NCBI GenBank assembly: GCA_030680795.1
Contig: JAUXUL010000029.1
Span: forward strand, 1 to 64,000
Length of the DNA: 64,000 bases
Direction: 5' to 3'
Origin: Anaerolineales bacterium
Lineage (GTDB): Bacteria > Chloroflexota > Anaerolineae > Anaerolineales > Villigracilaceae
The notes below the pieces were generated by a model, which had not been told where the DNA came from, made no database searches, and worked only from the letters and a program-made list of their open reading frames with translations. Shown here one piece after another: positions 1 through 19,179 of this stretch. A program made the position numbers and the translations under genes. Within the stretch, counting starts at the first letter, position 1; each line of letters opens with the position of its first letter.

Positions 1-349
1 TGACGCGGATCGGGTATTCGTATGTTTCGAAGAGAGTGGCAAACACATGCCTCATGTCGCCCGCTTTGCGGAAAATCTGATTGCCAATGAATTCGCGACC
101 GATGTGACATTCAACGCAGGCAATGCGCGCATGAGGCGAGACCTGATAAGCCGCGTACTCAGGAGGCATGGTGTGGCAGCTGGTCCCGCAGAATGTTGGG
201 GAATTGGTATAGTCCCAAACATACGCCCCGCTCACAAATAGCGAAACGATGAACACACTCAATATTGCGTACGGGATGATATACATCCAACGCGAGGAAC
301 CGTGAGGTGGAAATAGGAAGTTGCGAAGTTTGTGGCGAAATTTTGTCAT
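1..349 (-). CDS. NapC/NrfH-like multiheme cytochrome c, partial (N-terminus)
   Basis: The first 116 codons of a gene that runs off the left edge. The product begins with a short basic stretch, one membrane helix (about residues 22-42), then two heme-binding sites: CGTSCHTM (three residues between the cysteines) and CVECHIG, followed by further NapC-type sequence. NapC/NirT/NrfH proteins take electrons from menaquinol and pass them to a periplasmic reductase. The ATG at 349 lies 13 bases after the stop of the cytochrome b/c fusion, so it is the last visible gene of that operon. A reductase partner, for example NrfA, could lie beyond the edge but cannot be seen. Confidence 0.8.
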   Translation of the reverse strand, partial: MTKFRHKLRNFLFPPHGSSRWMYIIPYAILSVFIVSLFVSGAYVWDYTNSPTFCGTSCHTMPPEYAAYQVSPHARIACVECHIGREFIGNQIFRKAGDMRHVFATLFETYEYPIRV

Positions 350-362
350 ACTTTGATCCTGT

Positions 363-2486
363 TTAGTTTTCTGGTGCGCCAGCCGCAATCCAATCCAGGA
401 TTACCTGTATATCCGATTGAGATAAAGATCCTATAGGAGGCATCTGGGAGCCTTGTCCCAAAATACTCCGGGCAAGGAGGCTGTTTGCGGCATTGCCGGG
501 GATGACGGCTGGGGCGTTGTCGCCGCTGGTCATCAACGATTGATAAGAGGTGGAATCCCAGCCTCCGCGCAGCTTTTCCGGGTTATGGCATGTGTTGCAA
601 TTTGCTTCGAGGATGGCGCTTACCCTGCCAGAATAGGTCAGCGAGGCCGCATAATTGGGATCCAATGTTCGGATGTATTGGATCAACAATTCGATCTGAC
701 TTTTGGAAAGTTTATCGGTCCATGCGATCATGTCTGTCCCGGCGCGACTGTAACTGATCATATCGAACAACGCTTGATCGTCGAGTTTACTTTGAAATTC
801 CTTTGTGTTGAACGCGGGTCCCACATCCCCCTCTCCAGCCGGACCGTGACAACGGGCGCATGCGATAGTGAATAATTGCGCGCCGGTCAAACTAGTCAAA
901 TTGGGAGAAGGAGCCGCCGGGGTCTCAGGTTGAACTTCGGCGTTTGCAGCTGGCGCTTCGGCGGGCGGATTGGATTCCCAGTTACGTATGAATGCCACAA
1001 CTGCATCCAGCTGTTCATCGTCAAGCGCTCCACCATTTTCAGCCCCAAAGGGCGACATGCCAAAATCGGGCTGTCCGAATGAGATGATATTTCGAATAGT
1101 GGCGTCGTCGCGGGTCTTTAAATATTCGCTCGAACTGATCGGGGCGATGATATCACCATGCCTGGATGGATTTAGACCGCCTTGCCCAGATTTCCCATGA
1201 CAATCACTGCAATTTTCAGCAAATAAGTTTGCTCCAGCCGCGGGACCGCCGCCTTTGCTTGCTGCAAACGTGTATTGTACAAGCGCGTCAAGTTGTTCAA
1301 CGGTAAGAATGTCGCCCCAAACAGGCATGGTGATGTGCGCTCCACCCGAAGAAATAATCTTTATGGCGCTTTCCTTATCAGGGGCCTTCGGGACTTTATT
1401 TCCATGGCAACTGGCGCAATGTTGCCCGAATAGAGTCGCACCGCCGGAATTCTGCGCCGGGTCCACAACATAAGAAGTCAGGGCATCCATGTCTTTTTCG
1501 CTGAGAGTGCCTTTCCATGCAGGCATATCCAGATGCTGGCCGCCTTTTGTGATCAGCTCTGTAAGTTCTTCTTCTGTGCCGTTGTAGCCTACGGCTTGCC
1601 CATGGCAACCGGAGCAATTAATAACAAACAAGCGTTGTCCATCCGGCGCTGCGAGGAAGTTAAGCAGTCCGTTGAGCTCAGTGTCTGTCAGACTTTCGGC
1701 CCAGTTTGCGGCCTCGATCCCTTCATGAGATGGGTAGTTTACGCCTTCGTCGAATACACGCTGCAATTCTACGGGGTTGCCGCTGGCCACCAGTGGCTGC
1801 TCATGGCAAACCGCGCAATATTTGGTGAAAACCGCGCTGCCATTTGGCGAGAGAATAAAGCCGGCTAGCGCATCTATTTCATCCGTGCCGAGATCGCCTC
1901 CCCAGGCCGGCATGCCCTCATGCGTGCCGGCTGCGATGACCTGATGCAAATCCGTGCCAACTGGAACGTCAATGCTGGGGCCATGGCAATTCGCGCAATT
2001 TGCCGCGTAGAGCGCCGCGGCTTTATCCACAACAATTGCCTCTTGCGGCGGGGGAGCCTCTCGTACCGAGGCGATGGTTAAATAGAGGATGCCTGCAACC
2101 ACCACGAACGCAGAGATGCTGGCAAAGGGACGATTTAGAAAGTGCCGTTTAGGGCTTCTATCAATAAATGGCAATAGAATCAGGAGCAGGATGAGAAGCC
2201 CGGGCAGCACCATCGCGCCGATCACTTCCAGTTTGCCGGGAAAATATTTAAGCGCCTGGAAGAGGAAGAGAAAATACCATTCAGGACGCGGCGTATACGT
2301 GGTATCGGCTGGATTCGCGCGGGCCTCAAGCGGAGCGCCAACAAAATATGCCAGGGCAGCCAGAATGATGAATATCAAAAGGGCGGCAATTGTATCCTTG
2401 AAGATGATATCGGGGAAAAAAGGTACTCCCTTTTCCTTTTCCTTTTTATATTCATCCAGATATTTCTTTTTTTCCTGTTCGTTCAT
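363..2486 (-). CDS. Cytochrome b C-terminal domain (subunit IV-like) fused to seven c-type heme domains
   Basis: 707 residues. The first 140 residues hold three membrane helices and the PEWY motif (residues 68-71), the quinol-oxidation-site signature of the C-terminal half of cytochrome b / subunit IV. Seven CXXCH motifs follow at about residues 164, 224, 291, 357, 426, 543 and 630. The first five domains are closely spaced class I cytochrome c units, a Pro/Ala-rich linker lies near 505-530, and the last domain resembles the planctomycete-type single cytochrome c fold. It starts 3 bases after the cytochrome b N-terminal gene. The protein would serve both as half of the quinol-oxidising core and as an outward heme wire replacing cytochrome c1/f. 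Confidence 0.9.
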   Translation of the reverse strand: MNEQEKKKYLDEYKKEKEKGVPFFPDIIFKDTIAALLIFIILAALAYFVGAPLEARANPADTTYTPRPEWYFLFLFQALKYFPGKLEVIGAMVLPGLLILLLILLPFIDRSPKRHFLNRPFASISAFVVVAGILYLTIASVREAPPPQEAIVVDKAAALYAANCANCHGPSIDVPVGTDLHQVIAAGTHEGMPAWGGDLGTDEIDALAGFILSPNGSAVFTKYCAVCHEQPLVASGNPVELQRVFDEGVNYPSHEGIEAANWAESLTDTELNGLLNFLAAPDGQRLFVINCSGCHGQAVGYNGTEEELTELITKGGQHLDMPAWKGTLSEKDMDALTSYVVDPAQNSGGATLFGQHCASCHGNKVPKAPDKESAIKIISSGGAHITMPVWGDILTVEQLDALVQYTFAASKGGGPAAGANLFAENCSDCHGKSGQGGLNPSRHGDIIAPISSSEYLKTRDDATIRNIISFGQPDFGMSPFGAENGGALDDEQLDAVVAFIRNWESNPPAEAPAANAEVQPETPAAPSPNLTSLTGAQLFTIACARCHGPAGEGDVGPAFNTKEFQSKLDDQALFDMISYSRAGTDMIAWTDKLSKSQIELLIQYIRTLDPNYAASLTYSGRVSAILEANCNTCHNPEKLRGGWDSTSYQSLMTSGDNAPAVIPGNAANSLLARSILGQGSQMPPIGSLSQSDIQVILDWIAAGAPEN

Positions 2487-2489
2487 GGC

Positions 2490-3149
2490 TCACTCATCCT
2501 TCTTTGGCACACCGGTAATGCCGATGCGAATGACAAGGTATAGATGGATGCCAACCAGCGCCGCGAGTGTGGCGGGCAATATCCACACGTGGGTGCCGAA
2601 AAAGCGCGCCAGGGTGACGGCTGAAATGTCCCTGCCTCCTCGTGCAATACGCAGCATCCAATCTCCGACAAATGGGGCAAGACCTATAATTTGTGTTCCC
2701 ACAGTGGTTGCCCAAAACGATTTCTGATCCCAGGGGAGCAGGTAGCCAGTGAAGCCAAAGCCAATGACTATCAGGAGCAGGATTATGCCGGTAATCCAGG
2801 TGGCTTCGCGCGGATACTTATACGCGCCGAAGTAGAAGACACGCAACAGATGAAGGACCGTCAGCACGACCATTGCACTGGCTCCCCAATGATGCAAGCC
2901 GCGGATTAACCAGCCAAATGGCAACTGGGTGGTAATGTAGACAACGCTGTCATAGGCATGATCAGGTGTAGGGACGTAATACAGGGTCAACAATATACCC
3001 GTAATCGCCTGATTTATCGCCACAAAAAGAGTGGCGCTTCCAAGTGTATAGAACCAATTTACATGCGGAACCTTGCGTTCAAAGATCGCCGCCCACACCT
3101 CACGCCAGGAGAATCGTTCATCCAGCCAGTCGCCAATTTTTGCCAACAT
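2490..3149 (-). CDS. Cytochrome b N-terminal subunit (b6-like) of a bc-type complex
   Basis: 219 residues, the length of a stand-alone cytochrome b6-type subunit. Four membrane helices are visible. Paired histidines in helices B and D bind the two b hemes; the helix D pair in the segment around HVWILPATLAALVGIH has the 14-residue spacing of the b6 type. It lies between the Rieske gene (the Rieske stop is 1 base before its start) and the subunit IV-heptaheme fusion, the usual order for a split cytochrome b. It forms the quinol oxidase/reductase core of a menaquinol:cytochrome c oxidoreductase. Confidence 0.92.
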   Translation of the reverse strand: MLAKIGDWLDERFSWREVWAAIFERKVPHVNWFYTLGSATLFVAINQAITGILLTLYYVPTPDHAYDSVVYITTQLPFGWLIRGLHHWGASAMVVLTVLHLLRVFYFGAYKYPREATWITGIILLLIVIGFGFTGYLLPWDQKSFWATTVGTQIIGLAPFVGDWMLRIARGGRDISAVTLARFFGTHVWILPATLAALVGIHLYLVIRIGITGVPKKDE

Positions 3150-3150
3150 A

Positions 3151-3633
3151 TCAACCTCGCTTTATAAAAATTACCCCGTCTTCCACCTTGCTCTCAAAAC
3201 GATCGAGAGGACGGGGCGGGGGACCAGCTACGACAGCGCCATCTTTCGCAAAAACCCCATTATGGCATGGGCAGAAGAAACTATCCTGTTCCGGGATCCA
3301 GCGCACCCTGCAAGCCAGATGCGTGCAAACGTTGGACATCACAACATAATCCTGCCCATTGGAGGTGAGCACGTAAGCCGAGATCTCCTCCTCGGTATCG
3401 ATCCAGCCGGTTTGGGTTTCTATTGTTTTTTTGAAGAGTGTGGGAATATTGAGCTCCACCTTGCTGATGGAACCAAGTTGGATCCAGTCATCGCTTTCTT
3501 TCTGGAGCGCAGGTCCCATGATGTAAGGAATTGCCGGCAAGCCAATTGCCGCGCCAATTACCCCGCCAATACTGGCGATTGCCACTTTCATGAAATTACG
3601 GCGACCAAGTTGTTTGCCTTCTGATTTATCCAT
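3151..3633 (-). CDS. Rieske iron-sulfur protein of the bc-type complex
   Basis: 160 residues from the ATG at 3633, chosen because AAAGGA lies about 8 bases upstream; an in-frame ATG at 3672 has no such site. The N-terminus carries a twin-arginine signal (GRRNFMK) followed by a hydrophobic segment. The [2Fe-2S] ligands appear as CTHLAC and CPCHNG, the two Rieske boxes. The protein takes the first electron from quinol at the Qo site and passes it to a c-type heme, here presumably one of the seven fused to the next subunit. It heads the Rieske/cytochrome b part of the operon. Confidence 0.93.
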   Translation of the reverse strand: MDKSEGKQLGRRNFMKVAIASIGGVIGAAIGLPAIPYIMGPALQKESDDWIQLGSISKVELNIPTLFKKTIETQTGWIDTEEEISAYVLTSNGQDYVVMSNVCTHLACRVRWIPEQDSFFCPCHNGVFAKDGAVVAGPPPRPLDRFESKVEDGVIFIKRG

Positions 3634-3724: not shown

Positions 3725-4582
3725 TTATGGCTGCGGCGTTTGAGGGGAATAGATCTGCGTTTCTGTCAATGGGGTGATGGTGGTGAGAGCGGTTTCTTCA
3801 GTGTTGATAAAGCCAAAGATCCCAGCGAGCATGCCGATGGTCACGATTGCGGCGATGGGATAATATATCATTTTGCGCTTGCGCAGTGTCGCGGCGTCGG
3901 GTCTTCGATCCGCTAGGCCTGCTTTAATATCCGCAAGTTCGAGGGGATGCTCGTAGAGCATTTCCTCTTCGGTCTGTGTGCCTGTCCACATGGCTTTATT
4001 GAGGCGTTTGATGTGCACGCCGTATATGTGCCAGATGATGATGGCAAGCACCGCGAGCACGGCTTCGCCTCCGTGCGCGGCTTTGGCAGCTGGGACGAAT
4101 TCACCGGGCAGGTATTGTGTAGCGGTGATGGGATTCCACATGAAGAAGCCTGTGGCGCCCATCACAGCTGCACCCCACACGAAGGCCCAATATTCCAATT
4201 TTTCTTCAAAGGTATAACGTCCCATTTGGGGATAGGTCTTTGCAAAACCGAGGTTGTAGAACAGGGCTTGTATGCCGTCTTTCGCATCCTGTATGGTTGG
4301 AAGCATGGACATCTGGTCGCGCAGGACATAAACGCTGTAGCCCATGACGAGGATGTGATAAGCAGTCCCGAGCATCATAACAATAGCGGCGGTGTGGTGG
4401 ATGAAGCGCAGGGTTTCAATGCCTCCCAATATATTCAGGAGGAAGGCGCCGAGGCTTGAGGTTGGATACTTTTGGGGAAGGCCTGTCATTCCAAGCGTTA
4501 TAAAGGAAAGCAACATGAGGAGGTGTTCAATACGGCGCACCACAGGGAAGCGCATGTAGAGATTGGTTGTTTGCTTGCTCAT
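3725..4582 (-). CDS. Membrane diheme cytochrome b (formate dehydrogenase gamma / b561 type)
   Basis: 285 residues with about five membrane helices and conserved histidines in RRIEHLLM, FIHHTAAI and HIYGVHIK, consistent with the family of di-heme b subunits of formate dehydrogenase, hydrogenase and thiosulfate reductase. Such proteins carry electrons between the quinone pool and a periplasmic redox partner. The start overlaps the stop of the nonaheme gene by four bases, so the two proteins are very probably partners, forming a quinone-reactive module with the nonaheme cytochrome facing outward. Confidence 0.85.
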   Translation of the reverse strand: MSKQTTNLYMRFPVVRRIEHLLMLLSFITLGMTGLPQKYPTSSLGAFLLNILGGIETLRFIHHTAAIVMMLGTAYHILVMGYSVYVLRDQMSMLPTIQDAKDGIQALFYNLGFAKTYPQMGRYTFEEKLEYWAFVWGAAVMGATGFFMWNPITATQYLPGEFVPAAKAAHGGEAVLAVLAIIIWHIYGVHIKRLNKAMWTGTQTEEEMLYEHPLELADIKAGLADRRPDAATLRKRKMIYYPIAAIVTIGMLAGIFGFINTEETALTTITPLTETQIYSPQTPQP

Positions 4583-5793
4583 GAGTGCTTGACTCCTTTG
4601 ACGCGGTTAATGATGCGCCGGTATATATCGGTGATGACGAAAAAGGTCATGCCTGCCAATACGGCGGGGATAAAGAATTTATAAAAGAGGTTGACGTAAT
4701 AGACAATGGGATTGTGTTCAGGGCTGGGTTCGTAGTGACTCATCCACGCGTCGGGGAAATCAGCTGTCGCATCTGGATGGCAACGCTGGCATTTTTTCAG
4801 CAGGTTATCGCGCAGGGCAATGCCTGTTTTCACATTACTCACTTTGGAGATGTCGTGCACGCCATGACAATCAGTGCAGACCGGTTTGTTGGTGGGTTGC
4901 CCGGGGAATTCTTCTTCAAACAATTTTACAGTTGTGCCGTGGAAATCTGCAACGTAAGAATTGAGTACGTTTGTGGATATCCCGTACTTGTCCATAATGG
5001 TTGAATCGGTATGACATTTGGCGCAAAGAAAGGGCGTGCTATTGCGGAAGGTGACGACAGTTGGGTCCTGGATGTTATGTACGCCATGGCAATCAATACA
5101 GGTGGGGACGTCTGTATTGCCTTCCTGTGTGAGCGCGTTGCCGTGCACGCTGTATTTGTATGAGTCATAAATGCCGCTGTGACATTGCGCGCAGGTCTCC
5201 GGGATGTGCAGGCGAGCGGAGGGTGTAAGTTCGCCGCTTGTTTTGCCGGTCAGGCGTGTTTGTGTGTGCGGGTTGTGACAATCCATGCAAACGGCGGCAT
5301 TCTTGTTGCCTTCATCAAATGCGCGCTGGTGTACGCTGTCATGAACCTTGGTGTATTGTTCCTCGTGACAATCCTTGCAGGAATCTAAAAAGGTTAAGGT
5401 GAAGTCGCGTACGTTTTTAACCTTTACATCGGGGTGGGGGTAGTCGCTGATGTTCGTGTGGCAGTCTACACAGCTGAGGCCTTCTTCTGAGTGGGCGGAG
5501 TTGCCAAACTTTATCGGGTTGATGGTAACGGGCAGGGATTCACTGCCAAGGGTGATGTCTAAGCCTTCTTCCTGATGGCAGGCGAGACAAAAGTCGTTTG
5601 AGGGTTTGTCTTCCTGATAGGCAGGTGCTGCCTGGGCGGATGTGGTTAAAGATGCCAGGGCGAAGGTGAAAAGCCCAAGTCCGAGGAGCAGGAACAAGGC
5701 TTGCACAGAGCGAAGCATTGTCATGCTGCGAAGCGTGTCGAAGGGCCGAAGTGTCCAGGTACGGGACGGGCGAAGCCGTGTCCTTTGGTGCAT
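4579..5793 (-). CDS. Nonaheme c-type cytochrome with C-terminal membrane anchor
   Basis: 404 residues with nine CXXCH motifs (about residues 69, 108, 139, 169, 201, 232, 257, 306, 335) and a closing membrane helix near 368-390. The ATG at 5793 has AGGAG seven bases upstream. The first 25 residues are unusual: they come from DNA resembling a dispersed repeat, and a normal signal peptide (MLRSVQALFLLLGLGL) starts only after them, so the mature protein probably begins near Ala53. Multiheme cytochromes of this type relay electrons across the periplasm or cell surface. Translational coupling to the next cytochrome b gene supports a membrane quinol-linked role. Confidence 0.88.
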   Translation of the reverse strand: MHQRTRLRPSRTWTLRPFDTLRSMTMLRSVQALFLLLGLGLFTFALASLTTSAQAAPAYQEDKPSNDFCLACHQEEGLDITLGSESLPVTINPIKFGNSAHSEEGLSCVDCHTNISDYPHPDVKVKNVRDFTLTFLDSCKDCHEEQYTKVHDSVHQRAFDEGNKNAAVCMDCHNPHTQTRLTGKTSGELTPSARLHIPETCAQCHSGIYDSYKYSVHGNALTQEGNTDVPTCIDCHGVHNIQDPTVVTFRNSTPFLCAKCHTDSTIMDKYGISTNVLNSYVADFHGTTVKLFEEEFPGQPTNKPVCTDCHGVHDISKVSNVKTGIALRDNLLKKCQRCHPDATADFPDAWMSHYEPSPEHNPIVYYVNLFYKFFIPAVLAGMTFFVITDIYRRIINRVKGVKHS

Positions 5794-5973: not shown

Positions 5974-8142
5974 TTATGGGCGAGTGTATGCGCTCACATT
6001 ACCGCCCAGATCCTGGATCGAGTCGATCAGAATCTGAATGATGTACTTGTTGTTGTGGACGTAAACACCGGGGTCCTTCTGGCTGTATTGATAGTTGAAG
6101 GCAGCCTTGACTGAACGAGGTGTCCAGGTGGCATAGCCTTTGCCGTCTGCGCCAAAGAAGTACGGGTAGGCGCCGCCCTTATATTCAATTGCGCCGCCAT
6201 TTGCCGCCGCGTAGGTTTGAAGTTCGGCATAGAGGGCTTCTGCGAGCGTATCAACTTCGCCCTTGACGCCTTCGGTCACGTCGCCATCGCCATCGTAATC
6301 CACATCGGTCTCGCGGATGGTGGTTGGGTCAGTGGTGTCGTGGCAGGTCTCGCATGTTTCAACTTTCGGTTCAAGCGCGTGGACATCGTGACAATCCTTG
6401 CACTTGTTCACCTTGCCAGTATCGCTGGCGTGCAAGTTCTGTCCCACATATTCCTTGCCTTCGTACTGATAGGCGCCTTGAACATCGCCGCCAAAGATGG
6501 TAGCACCGGCAGCAAAGTAATGGATGTTCTTGAAGCGAACACCTGCATCAACAGTATCGAGGTCTTTGCCTCTGAGGGCATTGTTCATGCTGGTAGTAGA
6601 TTCGCGTCCCTGATGGCAGGAGATACAGAGGTTGGAGTCATCGGCAACGAACTTACCATCGGCATCCTTACCTCCAAAGCTGACCGTCTTGCCGCTGGGG
6701 AATATAACAGAAGCAACAGCATAACGTTCGGGCCAGGCTTCTTCGTTATGGCAGGTGGTGCACAGGTAGCCATTACTGGACGGCAGGGGAGCTAGACCAG
6801 TGATGGCGGTTGTGCCGCTGGATGTCACAACTGTCGTGCCGCCATCCTTAAGGTAGGTGGGCAGGCCTTGTGCGGTATGACATTTCACACATGCAAAAGG
6901 CACCTCTCCTCCCTCATCCCAATGACGGAACGCTTCTGTGTTTCCAGCGAAGTGGCCTGCATCGGTGCGGGCGAGTTTGCTGACGTCACCGCCGAGATCG
7001 GCGACAGAGTCGAAGAGCAATTGGACGATGTACTTGTTGCCGTGGGCGAAGGCACCGGGATCCTTGAGGGAGACCTGGTAGTTGTAGGCGGCTTTGAGCA
7101 GACGAGGAGTCCAATTCTTGTAGGCATTCGGGAAGACGGCTTCGCCTTCGTCTACTGTGCCATTGGCATTGGTGTCTGCGAAGAAGTAGGGATAGGCATC
7201 TGGCGAGTAAACGATCGCGGCGCCAGCCTTATCCGTGGCGTACTTGGTGATCTCAGCCATGAGGGTTTCCTGCAAGCCTTGAATCTCATAGTACATGCCT
7301 TCTTCCACATTGCCGTCGCCATCATAGTCTTTGGCAGAAGCAACCATGCGGACATCTTTGAGGTCATCCACTGTGGCAACGCCTTCATGGCAGTTCGCGC
7401 ATTGTTCAACATTCACCTCGAGGGTGTGGGGGTTGTGACAACCGGTGCATGTGGCATAGCCTTCGACGTGGGTGTTCTTGGCGTCGTAGGTATTGCCGTC
7501 ATATTCATAACCGCCATGAGTCTCACTACCATAGAGAGTGGCGGCTGCGGCAAAGTAGTGAACATTGCGGAAGCCAAGAACGACATCGTTGCCTTTGTCG
7601 TCTTTGAAAGGCGCAGGCACGGCATCCGGGTCAACGTTCTCGCCGAACTTGGCAATGGCTTCATCAACGCTGACTTTGGATTCACGTCCCTGATGACATT
7701 CCATACAACGGACATCGTCTCCGGCTTTGATCTCTACGCCGGAGGGGAACATGACGGTGGTCTTTGTGAAGGTGACTGCATTGTGGCAGGTCACGCATTG
7801 AATGCCGGGGTTGCCGTCTTTCACAGACACAGCGGCGTCCGTTTTATTGGCTTCAGTACCGTCTGCGCCAATGTAATCCTGATAACCGGCACTGGTATGG
7901 CATTTTGCGCAGGTGGCGGGGACTTCGAATTTGCTGTCCTCATTGCTCCAGTGCAAGAAGGGTTCTGTATCAAGGGCATTATGAGCAGAACCCTGCCATG
8001 CCTCAAGATTGGGAACCTCTACCTCTGGCGCGACAGGGGCTTCGGTTGGGGCTTGTGTGGTTGCCGCGCCGCCGCAGGCTGCAATAATTACGCCGACTAC
8101 GAGCATCACACCGAGCAAAACAAGCATTTTTTTGTAATTCAT
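5974..8142 (-). CDS. Decaheme c-type cytochrome lipoprotein with two pentaheme halves
   Basis: 722 residues from the ATG at 8142, preferred over 8151 because AGGAG is ten bases before it. The signal peptide ends in the lipobox IIAAC. Ten CXXCH motifs are split five and five. The halves repeat the same order: an HW-containing opening, CAKCHT/CVKCHT, a two-Cys site after it, FPSG, CMECHQGRES/CISCHQGRES, an H-Y-F-A-A segment, two more heme sites, a DYDGDG loop like a calcium-binding EF-hand, and a DPG...NKYI ending. The gene therefore arose by internal duplication. It is exported and lipid-anchored, probably an electron conduit or reductase at the cell surface. It is its own transcription unit with a terminator behind it. 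Confidence 0.88.
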   Translation of the reverse strand: MNYKKMLVLLGVMLVVGVIIAACGGAATTQAPTEAPVAPEVEVPNLEAWQGSAHNALDTEPFLHWSNEDSKFEVPATCAKCHTSAGYQDYIGADGTEANKTDAAVSVKDGNPGIQCVTCHNAVTFTKTTVMFPSGVEIKAGDDVRCMECHQGRESKVSVDEAIAKFGENVDPDAVPAPFKDDKGNDVVLGFRNVHYFAAAATLYGSETHGGYEYDGNTYDAKNTHVEGYATCTGCHNPHTLEVNVEQCANCHEGVATVDDLKDVRMVASAKDYDGDGNVEEGMYYEIQGLQETLMAEITKYATDKAGAAIVYSPDAYPYFFADTNANGTVDEGEAVFPNAYKNWTPRLLKAAYNYQVSLKDPGAFAHGNKYIVQLLFDSVADLGGDVSKLARTDAGHFAGNTEAFRHWDEGGEVPFACVKCHTAQGLPTYLKDGGTTVVTSSGTTAITGLAPLPSSNGYLCTTCHNEEAWPERYAVASVIFPSGKTVSFGGKDADGKFVADDSNLCISCHQGRESTTSMNNALRGKDLDTVDAGVRFKNIHYFAAGATIFGGDVQGAYQYEGKEYVGQNLHASDTGKVNKCKDCHDVHALEPKVETCETCHDTTDPTTIRETDVDYDGDGDVTEGVKGEVDTLAEALYAELQTYAAANGGAIEYKGGAYPYFFGADGKGYATWTPRSVKAAFNYQYSQKDPGVYVHNNKYIIQILIDSIQDLGGNVSAYTRP

Positions 8143-8252
8143 TGTTAGCATTCTCCTTTTTATTCAAATGGGATAAGGGTTGATAATTTATTTCAGTAGG
8201 GATAACCTCCTTACGGGGAAATTAATCTTTTATGAGATATTTCGAACCTTAT

Positions 8253-8735: not shown

Positions 8736-9902
8736 TTAGCGAGGCATGAAGACCAGGAAGGAAGCGCCGGTCTCTGTTGCATGGCGGACTTGCGCATTCT
8801 CGAAGACTGCTACGCCGAAGTAATATGAAGCGGTCAGGTCGGTGAACTCCACATCAAACTCAGAGGCGGTATCGAGCAGGCGGCCAAATTCGATTGTCCA
8901 CATACCATCAGCCCATACCCAGCCAGCAGAGATATTACCGCGGTCGCCAACGATCTCGGATTTCACGATGCCGGGGATGATGGTGCCTGCAGGCATTGCA
9001 TCGAGTTCTTCCTTGGTCACGGCAACTTTTTCGCTGGCGAGGATATAGCCGGGTGCACCAGTTGTTGTATCAATACTGGGGGAAGTGAAACCGGGCATGC
9101 TATGATCGGCAACGGTCTTGGTCGCATCAGCGGGATCGGGCATGGAAGCATAGTTGTCGCTGTAACCACCGGATTCCTTGGGGTCGGCCTTGCGTCCGGC
9201 TTCTTTGTTTCCATTATCAGCCGCGACACGAGCTTCAAAGGTGGTCCAATCAACATACTGGTCATCAATTTGATTCAGGTTGCGGACAGATTTCCAGTGC
9301 CAGATGTCGCCCAATTCGCCTTCTTTGGCGGTGTACTTGTTACCGTAAGGCTTGACGTCGGGGTTTTGATCAGCATGGCAGGCGGTGTAGCAGCCCTTGG
9401 TTTCAAATTTGGCGATGCTGTTATTGATCGGCCAGATGAAAGCCATTTTATCTTCGTAGTGCAAATTATTATCGCCGCCTTTGTCATTCGGGTCTTTATC
9501 CTGTTTCCAAGTGCCGTCTTCTTGCTTGATCCACGGGTAGCGGTACCAGGATTCGGTGGGGTCTTCGTAGGTAGCCAGGAAGTAAACACTATCGGCTGTA
9601 TAAACGGCTTTCAAATGAACTTTGGTTTCAAAGCCGCCAAAGCCGCCATCTACATCAACGACGATCTCTTCTGTATCAGCCCAGAAGGCTTCATCAGCAA
9701 CGCCATCCAGCGTGGGGGCGGCATCCACAGGGAACGCGGCCAATGCGCCAGCGGGGGCTTCCCAGGCGGGCATCGGGGGTTCAGTTGGGGCAGGTGGTTC
9801 GGTTGCTACAACCGGGGGTTCTGTTGGAGCGGGGGTGCCGCATGCGCTCAATACCATCGAAGCCAGCACGAGCAGTGAAACAAGTATAAACAGTTTTTTC
9901 AT
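8736..9902 (-). CDS. Ethylbenzene-dehydrogenase-like heme-binding lipoprotein with one CX3CH site
   Basis: 388 residues. A signal peptide ends in the lipobox VLSAC, followed by a Pro/Thr-rich linker (about 25-45). The body has the pattern of the EB_dh / DMSO-reductase gamma heme-binding fold: APTLDGVADEAFW at the start, a YEDKMAFIW strand and a C-terminal YYFGVAVFENAQVRHA. One c-type-like site, GCYTACHADQ, has three residues between the cysteines instead of two. Related proteins bind heme b outside the membrane and shuttle electrons for molybdoenzymes, but no molybdoenzyme is adjacent here. AGGAG lies eight bases before the start. It is transcribed divergently from the histidine kinase. Confidence 0.78.
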   Translation of the reverse strand: MKKLFILVSLLVLASMVLSACGTPAPTEPPVVATEPPAPTEPPMPAWEAPAGALAAFPVDAAPTLDGVADEAFWADTEEIVVDVDGGFGGFETKVHLKAVYTADSVYFLATYEDPTESWYRYPWIKQEDGTWKQDKDPNDKGGDNNLHYEDKMAFIWPINNSIAKFETKGCYTACHADQNPDVKPYGNKYTAKEGELGDIWHWKSVRNLNQIDDQYVDWTTFEARVAADNGNKEAGRKADPKESGGYSDNYASMPDPADATKTVADHSMPGFTSPSIDTTTGAPGYILASEKVAVTKEELDAMPAGTIIPGIVKSEIVGDRGNISAGWVWADGMWTIEFGRLLDTASEFDVEFTDLTASYYFGVAVFENAQVRHATETGASFLVFMPR

Positions 9903-10066: not shown

Positions 10067-11521
10067 ATGCGATTTGAAATCCTTTTCATCGTTTATTTTA
10101 TTTATGGATTAGCCTTTTTCAGCATGGGCTTGATTTTGTTTTTGGAAGCAAGCCGCACCCCCTCCCTTGAACAAAAAAAACTGCTCTTACCCCTTGCCGT
10201 CTTCGGACTTTTACACGGCATTCACGAATGGCTGGAAATCTTTACCCTGCAAAATGAACAACTTCATGGGAGCCTGCCCGCATGGATAACCTGGTTCCGT
10301 TTGATATGGCTGGCGCTTTCCTTCATTGCACTCTGGTTTTATGGCTGGCAGGCCTTTCAAGTTGCGCGCGCGCATATCAGCGCTTTCACTATTTTTGGAT
10401 TGGCAACCCTGCCGCCCTATATCCTGCTCATTCTGATTGACGTACTCTATTCTTTTTATCAAGGCGACATCACCCCGCTTCAGACGACGGGTGGGCTGGT
10501 TCGCTATCTACTGGCAGTTCCCGGCGCCGCCATCGCTTCCCTCGGACTTCGAGCGGGCGCGAACAGAGCCAAAGCAAATTCACGCCGACCGCTGGATACC
10601 CATCTCAACTGGACGGCTCTAGGCTTTGCCCTATACAGCGCCACACAACTTGCCGTTCCCAAAATGGATACGCTGACAGCCAACCTGATCAATGCCGAAG
10701 CCTTTACGCAAATTACAGGTATTCCCATTCAAGCCCTGCGCACCTTTGCCGCCATCGTTATCACCTGGAATTTATTCCGCGCCATTCAATTTCTGGAAGA
10801 GGAAAGACAGGTACAACTCACCGCCGCACAGCAAGCGCGCCTCGAAGCCCTTGAACAACATGAGATCATGCGCCGCGATCTGCTACGCCATATCGTGCGC
10901 GCACAGGAAGAGGAACGTACCCGCATTGCGCGCGAACTTCACGATGAAATGGCGCAAACGCTGACGGCCTTCACGCTTGATCTTGGCACGCTGAAACAAA
11001 TGACTGGAACCCGTTCCAAAACCGCATCCATCCTTGCAAGATTACAGGAGCTTGGGAAAAAAATGTCCCAAAGCATGCATCAGATGGTTTATGACCTGCG
11101 CCCCGCCCATTTGGATGAACTCGGACTTTTACCCGCCTTGCAATTCCTGGCAGATAAGGACGGCCCGCGGCTTGGTTTGCAAATCGAATTCAAAACGGAT
11201 GGCGAACCGCGCCGCATTGACTCACTTGTAGAAACCGTCCTCTTTCGTGTCGCCCAGGAATCCATAACGAACATTGCGCGTCATGCCAAATCAAAACGCG
11301 CTGTTATTTATATAAGTTATCTTGCCCAGGAAGTTAAGTTGGAAGTGTCAGATGACGGCGTTGGCTTTGACCCCGAAGAGAAGTTCATCGCGCCGCGCGG
11401 CTGGGGTTTGGCTGGGATGAAAGAAAGAGCCGAATCGGTCGGAGGCAGGTTCGAGGTCCGAGCTGAAGCGGGACGCGGGACTATAATCCGCGTGAATATT
11501 CCAGTCCAACAGGAGATTTGA
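10067..11521 (+). CDS. NarL-type membrane sensor histidine kinase
   Basis: 484 residues. The first 240 hold about seven membrane helices with no large outside domain, so the signal is probably sensed in or near the membrane. A coiled linker leads to the HisKA_3 box ARELHDEMAQ with the phosphorylated His near 292, then a HATPase_c domain with DDGVGFDP and GWGLAGMKERA. The response regulator gene starts one base after its stop, so the two form a pair. Divergence from the cytochrome locus makes respiratory control a reasonable guess, not a demonstrated one. Confidence 0.9.
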   Translation: MRFEILFIVYFIYGLAFFSMGLILFLEASRTPSLEQKKLLLPLAVFGLLHGIHEWLEIFTLQNEQLHGSLPAWITWFRLIWLALSFIALWFYGWQAFQVARAHISAFTIFGLATLPPYILLILIDVLYSFYQGDITPLQTTGGLVRYLLAVPGAAIASLGLRAGANRAKANSRRPLDTHLNWTALGFALYSATQLAVPKMDTLTANLINAEAFTQITGIPIQALRTFAAIVITWNLFRAIQFLEEERQVQLTAAQQARLEALEQHEIMRRDLLRHIVRAQEEERTRIARELHDEMAQTLTAFTLDLGTLKQMTGTRSKTASILARLQELGKKMSQSMHQMVYDLRPAHLDELGLLPALQFLADKDGPRLGLQIEFKTDGEPRRIDSLVETVLFRVAQESITNIARHAKSKRAVIYISYLAQEVKLEVSDDGVGFDPEEKFIAPRGWGLAGMKERAESVGGRFEVRAEAGRGTIIRVNIPVQQEI

Positions 11522-11522
11522 T

Positions 11523-12200
11523 ATGTCCAATATCCGTCTTATGCTGGTGGATGATCATCAAGTCATCCGCACGGGGTTGAAATCCTTTTTGCAAACACAG
11601 CCTGATTTTGAAGTGGTCGCCGAAGCAAGCAATGGGCAGGAAGCCATTACGCTCGCGTTGGAGACGCGCCCCGACATTATCATTATGGATATCTCCATGC
11701 CAGAGATGGACGGCCTGGAAGCCACGCGCCGATTAAAAGTACAGTGGCCGCAAGTTGTGGTGCTGGCTCTGACTGTACACGAAGATAAGTTTTATTTTAT
11801 GAAAATGCTGGAAGCGGGCGCATCCGGCTATCTCACCAAACAAGCGGCTTCTGATGAGTTGGTGCAAGCCATCCAGACCGTAGCCAATGGACATATATAT
11901 TTACAACCCGCGTTGGCGCGTTGGTTGTTGGAAGATTATCAGCATTTGATCGAATCCCCATCACCAGAGAAACCTGAAGAAGGGGGAGCAGTTGGGCTTA
12001 AAGCATTGAGCGCCCGCGAACGCGAGGTGCTGGAAATGGTCGCGCAGGGATTGAGTAATTATGAGATCGGGGAAAAACTTGATTTGAGTCACAAGACCAT
12101 TGCGCGTCATCGCGAACGTATTATGAATAAGCTCAATATGCACTCGCGCACCGAGTTGGTCAAGTTTGCCATTCGCACGGGGTTGATCTCGTTGGAGTAG
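11523..12200 (+). CDS. NarL/FixJ-family response regulator
   Basis: 225 residues. The receiver domain carries the acidic pair DD near residue 10-11, the phosphoacceptor Asp56 in IIIMDISMPEMDG, a conserved Thr (ALTVHED) and Lys in TKQAA. The C-terminus is a LuxR-type helix-turn-helix (LSAREREVLEMVAQGLSNYEIG). The AGGAG of CAACAGGAGATTTG is inside the end of the kinase gene, so translation is coupled. It should bind promoter DNA when phosphorylated by the preceding kinase. Confidence 0.94.
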   Translation: MSNIRLMLVDDHQVIRTGLKSFLQTQPDFEVVAEASNGQEAITLALETRPDIIIMDISMPEMDGLEATRRLKVQWPQVVVLALTVHEDKFYFMKMLEAGASGYLTKQAASDELVQAIQTVANGHIYLQPALARWLLEDYQHLIESPSPEKPEEGGAVGLKALSAREREVLEMVAQGLSNYEIGEKLDLSHKTIARHRERIMNKLNMHSRTELVKFAIRTGLISLE

Positions 12201-17541: not shown

Positions 17542-18495
17542 ATGAGCAACCCGTTTAAATCCGTTCCCGTTCGTTCATCTGAAATTACATCGAAGCATGT
17601 TTATCTTTCGCGGCGTGACTTCATCAAAACCGCGGGTGTTGTGGCAGGCAGCATGGCGCTCGCGGCCTGTGCACCAGAAGCGGTTGAAAGCACAGCTGCG
17701 TCTGCGCTTGACGCAGGTCCGCCAAAGACCGATGAATTGGGTAACCCAGCCAATTCCTTTGAAGATATTACCAACTACAACAACTATTATGAATTCAGCA
17801 CAAACAAGGAAGCAGTAGCCTCCTTATCCAAAGACTTTACCACCGCGCCATGGACGGTGGAAGTCGGCGGTCTCGTCAACAAGCCGCAGACATTTGGCGT
17901 GGAAGACCTGCTGGGCCTGTTCCCGCAGGAGGAACGTATCTATCGCCTGCGCTGCGTGGAAGCCTGGAGCATGGTCATCCCGTGGAATGGATTCCCGCTT
18001 GCAAGTTTGCTCAAAATGGTCGAGCCGACCTCTGCTGCAAAGTATGTGCGCTTCGAAACTGTTTTCCGTCCCGAAGAAATGAAAGGACAGGGAAGCCCGT
18101 TTTATCCCTGGCCGTATGAGGAAGGCTTGCGTATGGATGAAGCCATGAATGATCTGGCCATTCTTGCAACGGGCATGTATGGCGAGACCATGCTTCCACA
18201 AAATGGCGCGCCAATCCGGCTCGTTGTGCCGTGGAAATATGGTTTCAAATCCATCAAATCCATCGTCAAGATCGAATTGACGGCCGAAAGACCGAATACA
18301 TTGTGGAATACAGTCGCAACCAATGAATACGGCTTTTATGCCAACGTCAATCCAGCGGTGGATCATCCGCGCTGGTCACAGGCTTCCGAGCGCCGCATCG
18401 GAGAACTCAGCCGCACAGCCAGCCTGCCTTTCAATGGCTATGGCGAACAGGTCGCCAGTCTCTATGCTGGCATGGACCTGAGTTTGAATTTTTAA
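17542..18495 (+). CDS. msrP: Periplasmic protein-methionine-sulfoxide reductase, molybdopterin subunit
   Basis: 317 residues. A twin-arginine signal ([10 protein letters not shown]) is followed by a hydrophobic stretch. The SUOX-fold molybdenum-binding Cys138 is in [15 protein letters not shown], the MsrP signature, and [24 protein letters not shown] follows. MsrP reduces oxidised methionines in exported proteins, with electrons from MsrQ, whose gene begins four bases after its stop. AGAGGAG lies seven bases before the ATG. Confidence 0.95.
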
Positions 18496-18498
18496 ATA

Positions 18499-19179
18499 AT
18501 GAAATTTCTCTCCCGTTACACCCCTCTTCAAATCGCCATTCACGTTTACGCCTGGTCTGCGTTGGTATGGATCATCTACGAATTGTTAACCGGCTCATTC
18601 TCGATCAATCCCATCCAGGAGTTGGAGCAACGCACAGGCCGCCATGCCATTACCCTGCTTGTGCTTTCATTGCTTTGCACGCCCATTCACACCATCTTCA
18701 AATGGAGCGAGCCACTCAAACGCCGCCGCACACTGGGTCTGTACACCTTCTTATATGCAACCATCCACGTCATCATCTTTGTGGATCTGGATTACGGCCT
18801 CGCGTGGAGTCTCTTGATTCAGGAACTCGTTGAAAAGCCGCGCCTGATTGTGGGTCTGATCGCATTTACCCTGCTGATCCCGCTCGCGATCACGTCATTT
18901 GATATTTGGAAAAAACGCCTCGGTAAAAACTGGAAACGCCTGCACCGACTTGTTTACTTGATCGCGCCCCTGGCGTTCCTCCATTATGTGTGGAGCAAAA
19001 AAGGCGACCTGCTTTCATTGCAAGGCGAAGTGGCAAAGCCATTGATCTATGGACTCCTCATTGCGATTTTTCTCATTTTTCGGATTCCCATCATTCGAAA
19101 AGCGCTCGCTTCTTTCTCGATCCGAGACCTGCGTCTGCCTCCCAAAAAGGATCAGCAACCCAAAGTGGATGCGCCTTAA
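18499..19179 (+). CDS. msrQ: Heme-binding membrane subunit of the MsrPQ system
   Basis: 226 residues with about six membrane helices of the ferric-reductase-like fold. Conserved His residues occur in RHAITLLVL, ATIHVIIF, RLHRLVYLI and FLHYVW. The protein carries electrons from the quinone pool or a flavin reductase to MsrP. The arrangement msrP-msrQ with a three-base gap is standard. Confidence 0.93.
   Translation: MKFLSRYTPLQIAIHVYAWSALVWIIYELLTGSFSINPIQELEQRTGRHAITLLVLSLLCTPIHTIFKWSEPLKRRRTLGLYTFLYATIHVIIFVDLDYGLAWSLLIQELVEKPRLIVGLIAFTLLIPLAITSFDIWKKRLGKNWKRLHRLVYLIAPLAFLHYVWSKKGDLLSLQGEVAKPLIYGLLIAIFLIFRIPIIRKALASFSIRDLRLPPKKDQQPKVDAP

Follow-up and report, generated by a model that had tools for sequence, protein, structure and literature searches.

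What is known about bc complexes with multiheme partners?

Complexes built from a Rieske protein, cytochrome b and subunit IV have been described alongside multiheme c-type cytochromes in several organisms, and in the available portions of the relevant papers the multiheme partners of such b6/subunit IV-type complexes are separate proteins (PMC12954380, PMC3578206, PMC5877670, PMC4683180), the usual c subunit being called mono- or diheme and sometimes tetraheme in the part of one of them at hand (PMC3578206). Here we consider a locus from an Anaerolineales bacterium (Chloroflexota) in which subunit IV itself runs on into seven c-type heme domains, and which lies at the beginning of our window, the first 64,000 bases of the 73,062-base contig C49 of a 3.45 Mb draft genome that is 97% complete. 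The anammox clusters Kustd1480-1485 and Kuste4569-4574, together with the octaheme-linked bc operon of Nitrospina, Kuenenia and Methylomirabilis, are like it in combining b6-like and subunit IV proteins with a multiheme c that replaces cytochrome f, but their hexa- or octaheme cytochrome is, as far as the excerpted accounts go, a protein apart, whereas ours is a fused tail (PMC12954380, PMC3578206). The two anammox complexes are also described as carrying an NAD(P) oxidoreductase (PMC12954380, in excerpt), and none was recognised in the window cluster. The ext cluster of Geobacter, ExtOPQ with ExtS/N/M, similarly places a Rieske protein, a cytochrome b and a small membrane protein amid multiheme cytochromes, yet the passages seen give these cytochromes genes of their own (PMC5877670), and the NCBIfam models of ExtP and ExtQ stayed below cut-off here (215 of 290 and 24 of 150 bits). 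A Rieske/cytochrome b complex of Methanoperedens is clustered with pentaheme cytochromes that have been proposed to take electrons outward; it is archaeal, and its pentahemes are again presented as separate proteins in the part of the source consulted (PMC4683180).

Closer to home is the diheme (subunit IV-c) bc complex of Anaerolineae/Chloroflexota, which shares the order Rieske, b6, subunit IV and whose two c domains, A and B, are homologous to the fifth and seventh domains of our tail (D5 and D7); unlike the window complex, it has two hemes, adjoins sdh genes and falls in a separate clade. A subunit IV fused to six to eight hemes was not found in the titles, abstracts and passages of the literature searched, which covered few subscription journals. 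What appears to be new, as judged from those partial sources, is thus the fusion of six to eight monoheme domains to subunit IV, bc complexes with separate multiheme partners being already known.

What does the locus encode?

The genes of interest are packed on the minus strand in the order nonaheme cytochrome, b561, Rieske, b6-like, fusion and the start of a NapC-like gene, and Pfam matches and coordinates alike bear out the preliminary description of adjacent Rieske, b6-like and subunit IV genes. The Rieske protein (160 aa, 3151 to 3633, ATG at 3633; PF00355) has a twin-arginine N-terminus, the cytochrome b6-like protein (219 aa; PF00033) occupies 2490 to 3149, and the fusion (707 aa; PF00032, PF13442 and PF07635) follows at 363 to 2486. 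The trio is, as had been proposed, a split bc-type complex; no separate cytochrome f or c1 of the kind that marks b6f and bc1 complexes is encoded in it, and seven monoheme domains are there instead. That subunit IV itself should carry seven c hemes also holds: there is one open frame with seven CXXCH motifs, starting at residues 164, 224, 291, 357, 426, 543 and 630 and hence spaced by 60, 67, 66, 69, 117 and 87 residues.

The membrane part of the fusion (petD-like, residues 1-149, 2040 to 2486) has the PEWY signature of subunit IV in the form PRPEWY, within a protein matching PF00032 (Cytochrom_B_C) over residues 57-148, and its hydropathy marks hydrophobic stretches at 23-56, 82-112 and 116-144, compatible with three membrane helices and, presumably, a tail on the outer side. 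In the tail, PF13442 (Cytochrome_CBB3) matches five stretches and PF07635 (PSCyt1) residues 630-684, with scores so far above the Pfam cut-offs that the heme domains are not a matter of chance. By hhalign and ligand counts, four short tandem monoheme domains (D1-D4, 1254 to 2039) adjoin the membrane part; they are followed by D5 (903 to 1253), the counterpart of the first c domain of the diheme paralogue, by D6 (642 to 902), an extra monoheme module that is missing from three hexaheme relatives, and by D7 (366 to 641), a PSCyt1-type domain that corresponds to the second c domain of the diheme protein. An AlphaFold2 model of the fusion, made from nine rows, reached a mean pLDDT of only 55 and a pTM of 0.29 and was discarded.

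The preliminary description had suggested that the fusion be sought across Chloroflexota genomes, and the same open frame and domain order recur in another 18 complete copies, each set in a different genome, for which reason an assembly join is excluded and the fusion is real at the level of the gene. These relatives are about 44-87% identical to the window protein, and among the 19 complete copies that include it seven CXXCH occur in 15, six in three and eight in one. Long relatives are present in 16 of 152 genomes of the family, the window genome counted, four of these copies (in G464, G465, G469 and G526) being truncated by a contig end or broken in assembly; of nine named GTDB contigs found separately, five were the same records as family genomes and were removed before counting. 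In a sample of the whole class the fusion was seen in 4 of 396 genomes, three of which belong to other families, the fourth being the window genome itself, and in two phylum samples of 400 a full-length match was found, among the matches listed, only in the genome on which the search was centred; at most two candidates were scored per genome in the class and phylum surveys, so absences there are soft.

Where did the long tail come from?

Outside the multiheme group, our comparison set holds 61 rows from 58 places, all other Chloroflexota loci, and in every one of those 58 the protein matching subunit IV carries 0-2 CXXCH, the diheme paralogue included, so the tail is indeed, as had been noted, far longer than the known mono- and diheme fusions. 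A tree of the b6 and subunit IV core (81 rows, 356 columns, LG+G4+F, ultrafast bootstrap) unites the 20 multiheme loci in a single clade with support of 100, adjoining the diheme clade of the class; its 81 rows represent 78 places, since L030/L092, L031/L093 and L047/L078 are double entries, and L137-L139 were left out. When single domains are compared by hhalign, D5 scores 184 against the first diheme domain and D7 158 against the second, and within the tail D3/D4 score 107, D1/D3 91 and D2/D3 76, with D6 resembling D5 (103).

The best explanation of these comparisons is that the heptaheme complex is a paralogue of the Anaerolineae diheme bc complex whose tail grew from two monoheme domains to between six and eight. 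The simplest history would have a four-heme tandem block inserted beside the membrane part of a diheme tail, with up to two modules added between the old pair: none in the three hexahemes, one in the window and two in the octaheme fusion L137 (G652:C111). The history may instead have run the other way, with the diheme group losing domains. The octaheme protein, at 110-2569 of its stretch, has its one further monoheme module after D6. Of the 16 family genomes with the fusion, 11 carry the diheme paralogue as well, and the window genome lacks it.

What do the heme ligands, the Rieske protein and the b6-like protein tell us?

Ligands were counted over 22 aligned rows, each count taken over the rows that cover the site. 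Methionine stands at the aligned position in nearly every domain (D1 21/22, D3 22/22, D4 20/21, D5 20/20, D6 15/16, D7 18/18), and the exception is D2, where it is absent (0/22) and a histidine three positions earlier, His254 in the window protein, is invariant (22/22). The same histidine also occurs beside the methionine in D1 (22/22), D4 (21/21) and D3 (16/22), so His254 can be put forward as a heme-iron ligand only as a candidate. In L072 the methionines of D1 and D4 are gone as well, and the histidine is kept.

The Rieske cluster motif, C-x-H-x2-C followed by C-x-C-H, is intact in the window (CTHLAC...CPCHNGVF) and in each of the 19 heptaheme loci whose stretch includes a Rieske gene, and none of the 19 has the serine of the classical HGS, with HN[GA] in 18 and HDA in one; a tyrosine at the Rieske tyrosine position is found only in L071. 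Mutant work has shown that a Rieske protein without that serine has a low-potential centre, suited to menaquinol. The diheme group lacks the serine too, and its loss therefore does not separate the two groups. The b6-like protein has two histidine pairs (by eye; PF00033), and 14 residues separate the two histidines in helix D, as is the rule for b6. We also considered, and rejected, a b6f complex with heme c_n: at what we take to be the position of the cysteine that binds this heme in b6f, the window protein has threonine, and threonine or alanine replaces the cysteine in the 18 heptaheme loci for which the motif was compared (L065 is cut, and L067 falls outside this set). The cysteine is present in L007 and L008, so the comparison was able to detect it.

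What might the complex do?

Our favoured reading, to which we would give a probability of roughly 55%, is that the trio forms a second, specialised menaquinol:cytochrome c oxidoreductase that passes electrons through its c chain to a multiheme partner and on to an acceptor at the surface or outside. Within that reading, the identity of a Rieske/b6/subunit IV-type complex is near certain, and outward transfer from it stands at about one half. We favour it because of the domain make-up, its conservation, the single clade, the match of D5 to A and D7 to B with D1-D4 added, and a context unlike that of the diheme paralogue: phmmer finds SdhA in 6 of 6 diheme stretches (L078, L079, L130-L133) and in 0 of 25 heptaheme ones, the stretches checked being 3.5 to 22 kb and some of them short, and the name SdhA resting on NCBIfam for two and on Pfam for four.

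The company that the trio keeps, namely the NapC-type gene, the nonaheme/b561 pair and the decaheme lipoprotein, would fit a menaquinol-to-outside route. In the 20 heptaheme loci over which neighbourhoods were counted (the window is the twentieth), a NapC-type gene accompanies the trio in 14, in G526 on a second contig, and directly adjoins it in 12, and the nonaheme plus b561 pair is present in nine, one of them truncated at a contig end; two further loci have b561-like genes but not the nonaheme. A NapC-type relative, close or distant, occurs in 15 of 16 fusion-bearing genomes vs 59 of 136 others in the family (Fisher p ~1e-4), and a close one in 12 of 16 vs 54 of 136 (p 0.014), kinship being ignored in both tests. 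Several findings weigh on the other side. The 54 fusion-free genomes with a close relative mean that fusion and NapC-type protein are not obligate partners, and 6 of the 20 loci lack a NapC-type gene within the stretch covered. In five (L062, L065 on a short contig, L066, L069 and L072) there is no multiheme neighbour, the decaheme protein has clear relatives in only 4 of 20 and weak ones in two more, and the genome is not rich in c3-type multihemes, having four PF14537 hits, two of them above cut-off and two in the window.

As for how such a complex would work, menaquinol would be oxidised at a Qo site with a Q cycle, one electron returning through the b hemes of the low-potential branch to quinone and the other passing from the Rieske protein into the c chain, either via D1, making the tail a linear wire, or via D5, the old partner, leaving D1-D4 as a side arm. 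The chain would discharge into another extracytoplasmic multiheme protein, most likely the decaheme lipoprotein or the nonaheme cytochrome encoded alongside, with a last hop to an acceptor located on the cell surface or outside it. In the part of the source available to us, three Chloroflexi genomes are described as those of single-membrane cells (PMC3971608), and this, together with a lipobox-like start, is why the decaheme protein could sit at the cell surface and is a possible surface acceptor. The complex might then be the energy-conserving member among several parallel menaquinol exits of the locus. More tentatively still, and we would rather bet against it, the tail may be a covalent conduit, in which an invariant four-heme block lies between the anchor and the old heme pair, with D2 (histidine, no methionine) as a step in potential, and which couples surface or extracellular respiration to a proton-pumping Q cycle instead of to exits of the NapC/CbcL type.

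To our knowledge, the menaquinol exits to extracellular acceptors of the CymA, ImcH and CbcL types are not credited with a Q cycle. If our favoured reading is true, a bc complex hard-wired to a chain of six to eight hemes would allow more energy to be conserved on extracellular acceptors, and this in a phylum for which single-membrane members have been described. It would also be a clean example of a bc complex changing its job, by duplication, with the core kept and heme modules spliced into the tail, and the six-, seven- and eight-heme versions, with the diheme paralogue, offer a natural series for testing the role of each module.

The most serious competitor, although we consider it unlikely, is that the tail is a tethered stand-in for soluble cytochrome c, serving the COX1 oxidase or NrfHA in the same membrane, so that nothing leaves the cell surface. 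The methionine candidates in six of seven domains, the likeness of the tail domains to CcoP of cbb3 oxidases and to bc1 diheme cytochromes, the ordinary respiratory look of the diheme relatives and the five loci devoid of multiheme neighbours all speak for it, as does the presence of both COX1 and NrfHA in the genome. That genome has one COX1 oxidase, an ACIII cluster with ActD and complex I (by eye), with no second bc complex found in it, and an NrfA gene with an NrfH-like gene (PF03264) alongside (C48:33375-33791). ACIII and COX1 together mean that an aerobic chain exists without the heptaheme complex, and the only bc complex of the genome may therefore be dispensable for that chain, which we count towards the favoured reading. 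Against the tether, the oxidase would be served by ACIII and NrfA by its adjoining NrfH-like gene, and seven hemes exceed what a tether needs; COX1 and NrfA are also found in none of the 25 heptaheme stretches by phmmer, a weak point, since the diheme stretches have none either. The preliminary description had spoken of a dedicated route from menaquinol to an outer acceptor, and the part that stands is the presence of several candidate menaquinol-oxidising multiheme proteins at the locus, whereas 'dedicated' sits poorly with a genome that also has ACIII, COX1 and NrfHA.

Electrons might also flow inward, from an outer donor such as a partner cell or a reduced mineral into the tail, with the complex running in reverse to reduce menaquinone. 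Sequence does not fix direction, and CymA and CbcL relatives are reported, in the passages seen, from Fe(III) reducers and Fe(II) oxidisers alike (PMC6295460). On the other side, homologues of ImcH, which the NapC-type neighbour resembles in plan only, are reported there solely from Fe(III) reducers, and the Rieske motif, given the potential set out above, suits menaquinol oxidation; we hold inward flow to be improbable. The idea that assembly or gene modelling wrongly joined subunit IV and a cytochrome gene unrelated to it, for which one could cite a contig that ends within the next gene, at a repeat, has a negligible chance of being right, the many independent genomes described above having already refuted the assembly error that had been named as one of the findings that would overturn the fusion.

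What else lies near the trio?

The NapC-like gene that had been placed next in line is there, in the sense that 2 to 349 on the minus strand matches PF03264 and would encode the 5' part of a NapC/NrfH-anchored multiheme cytochrome, but only the first ~116 codons, from the start at 349, are present before the contig end cuts off the rest. An identical stretch of 141 bases, inside this gene, forms positions 1-141 of the window, C10:1-141 and the end of C52. The gene can be continued through this end overlap into C10:3-1475, a join that is ambiguous because C10 and C52 share it, and there are probably at least two copies of the gene in the genome, with the assembly broken at their shared end. On C52 (L127), a molybdopterin oxidoreductase with a TAT signal (Pfam) lies between two NapC-type gene pieces, and the same interval holds Fe-S and NrfD-like proteins (by eye), alongside cytochromes that carry two and four CXXCH. 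Relatives of the NapC-type neighbour are about 570 aa long and mostly have seven CXXCH (eight in L068), the closest, from L060, matching PF03264 and having seven plus one CX3CH and one CX4CH. As far as the excerpts seen go, ImcH of Geobacter is like it in plan, with a NapC-like anchor and seven CXXCH, but has three N-terminal transmembrane helices, whereas the L060 protein has one hydrophobic stretch and the additional CX3CH and CX4CH (PMC6295460). The NapC-type neighbour was also considered as partner of a lone NrfA, and this was rejected, an NrfH-like gene (PF03264) adjoining NrfA.

In front of the trio, the expected pair of a nonaheme cytochrome (4579 to 5793, minus strand; nine CXXCH, PF14522) and a b561-type cytochrome b (3725 to 4582, minus strand; PF01292) is present, the two genes overlapping. 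CbcL of Geobacter is comparable in plan only, having nine CXXCH and a b-type membrane part, but there the nine CXXCH are described as fused to a six-helix b domain (PMC6295460), and window 3725-5793 is two genes. L061 has a b561-like protein at 3886-5601, in one frame with two CXXCH and with no nonaheme gene listed alongside. The decaheme cytochrome follows at 5974 to 8151 (minus strand; ten CXXCH, PF14522; the lipobox-like N-terminus was recognised by eye) and bears an internal duplication whose halves are 36% identical over 339 residues. Other loci have further candidates: L060 and L068 encode NrfD proteins near octaheme or heptaheme cytochromes, and L082 (2916-5958) and L060 (7716-10741) each combine NrfD, a twin-arginine Fe-S protein and an octaheme cytochrome, a candidate quinone module in which the NrfD of L082 and the Fe-S protein of L060 are putative. 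With NCBIfam, none of nine proteins scored above cut-off, the one exception being the octaheme protein of L060, which matched a generic doubled-CXXCH domain.

Scans of the window for promoters (11 found vs a mean of 10.7 in shuffles) and terminators (14 vs 10.5) were uninformative. Beyond the decaheme gene, a lipoprotein-like protein with an ethylbenzene-dehydrogenase-type domain (PF09459) is encoded at 8736-9902 and followed by a terminator-like hairpin of 13 pairs (8713-8685), and a histidine kinase/regulator pair resembling that at 10067-12200 occurs near several heptaheme loci. The genes at 17542-19179, for a twin-arginine protein and a small membrane protein, resemble an MsrPQ-type pair, and on the same contig past the window (L129, 7972-10789) two neighbouring genes have near-identical TIR-like N-termini (by eye).

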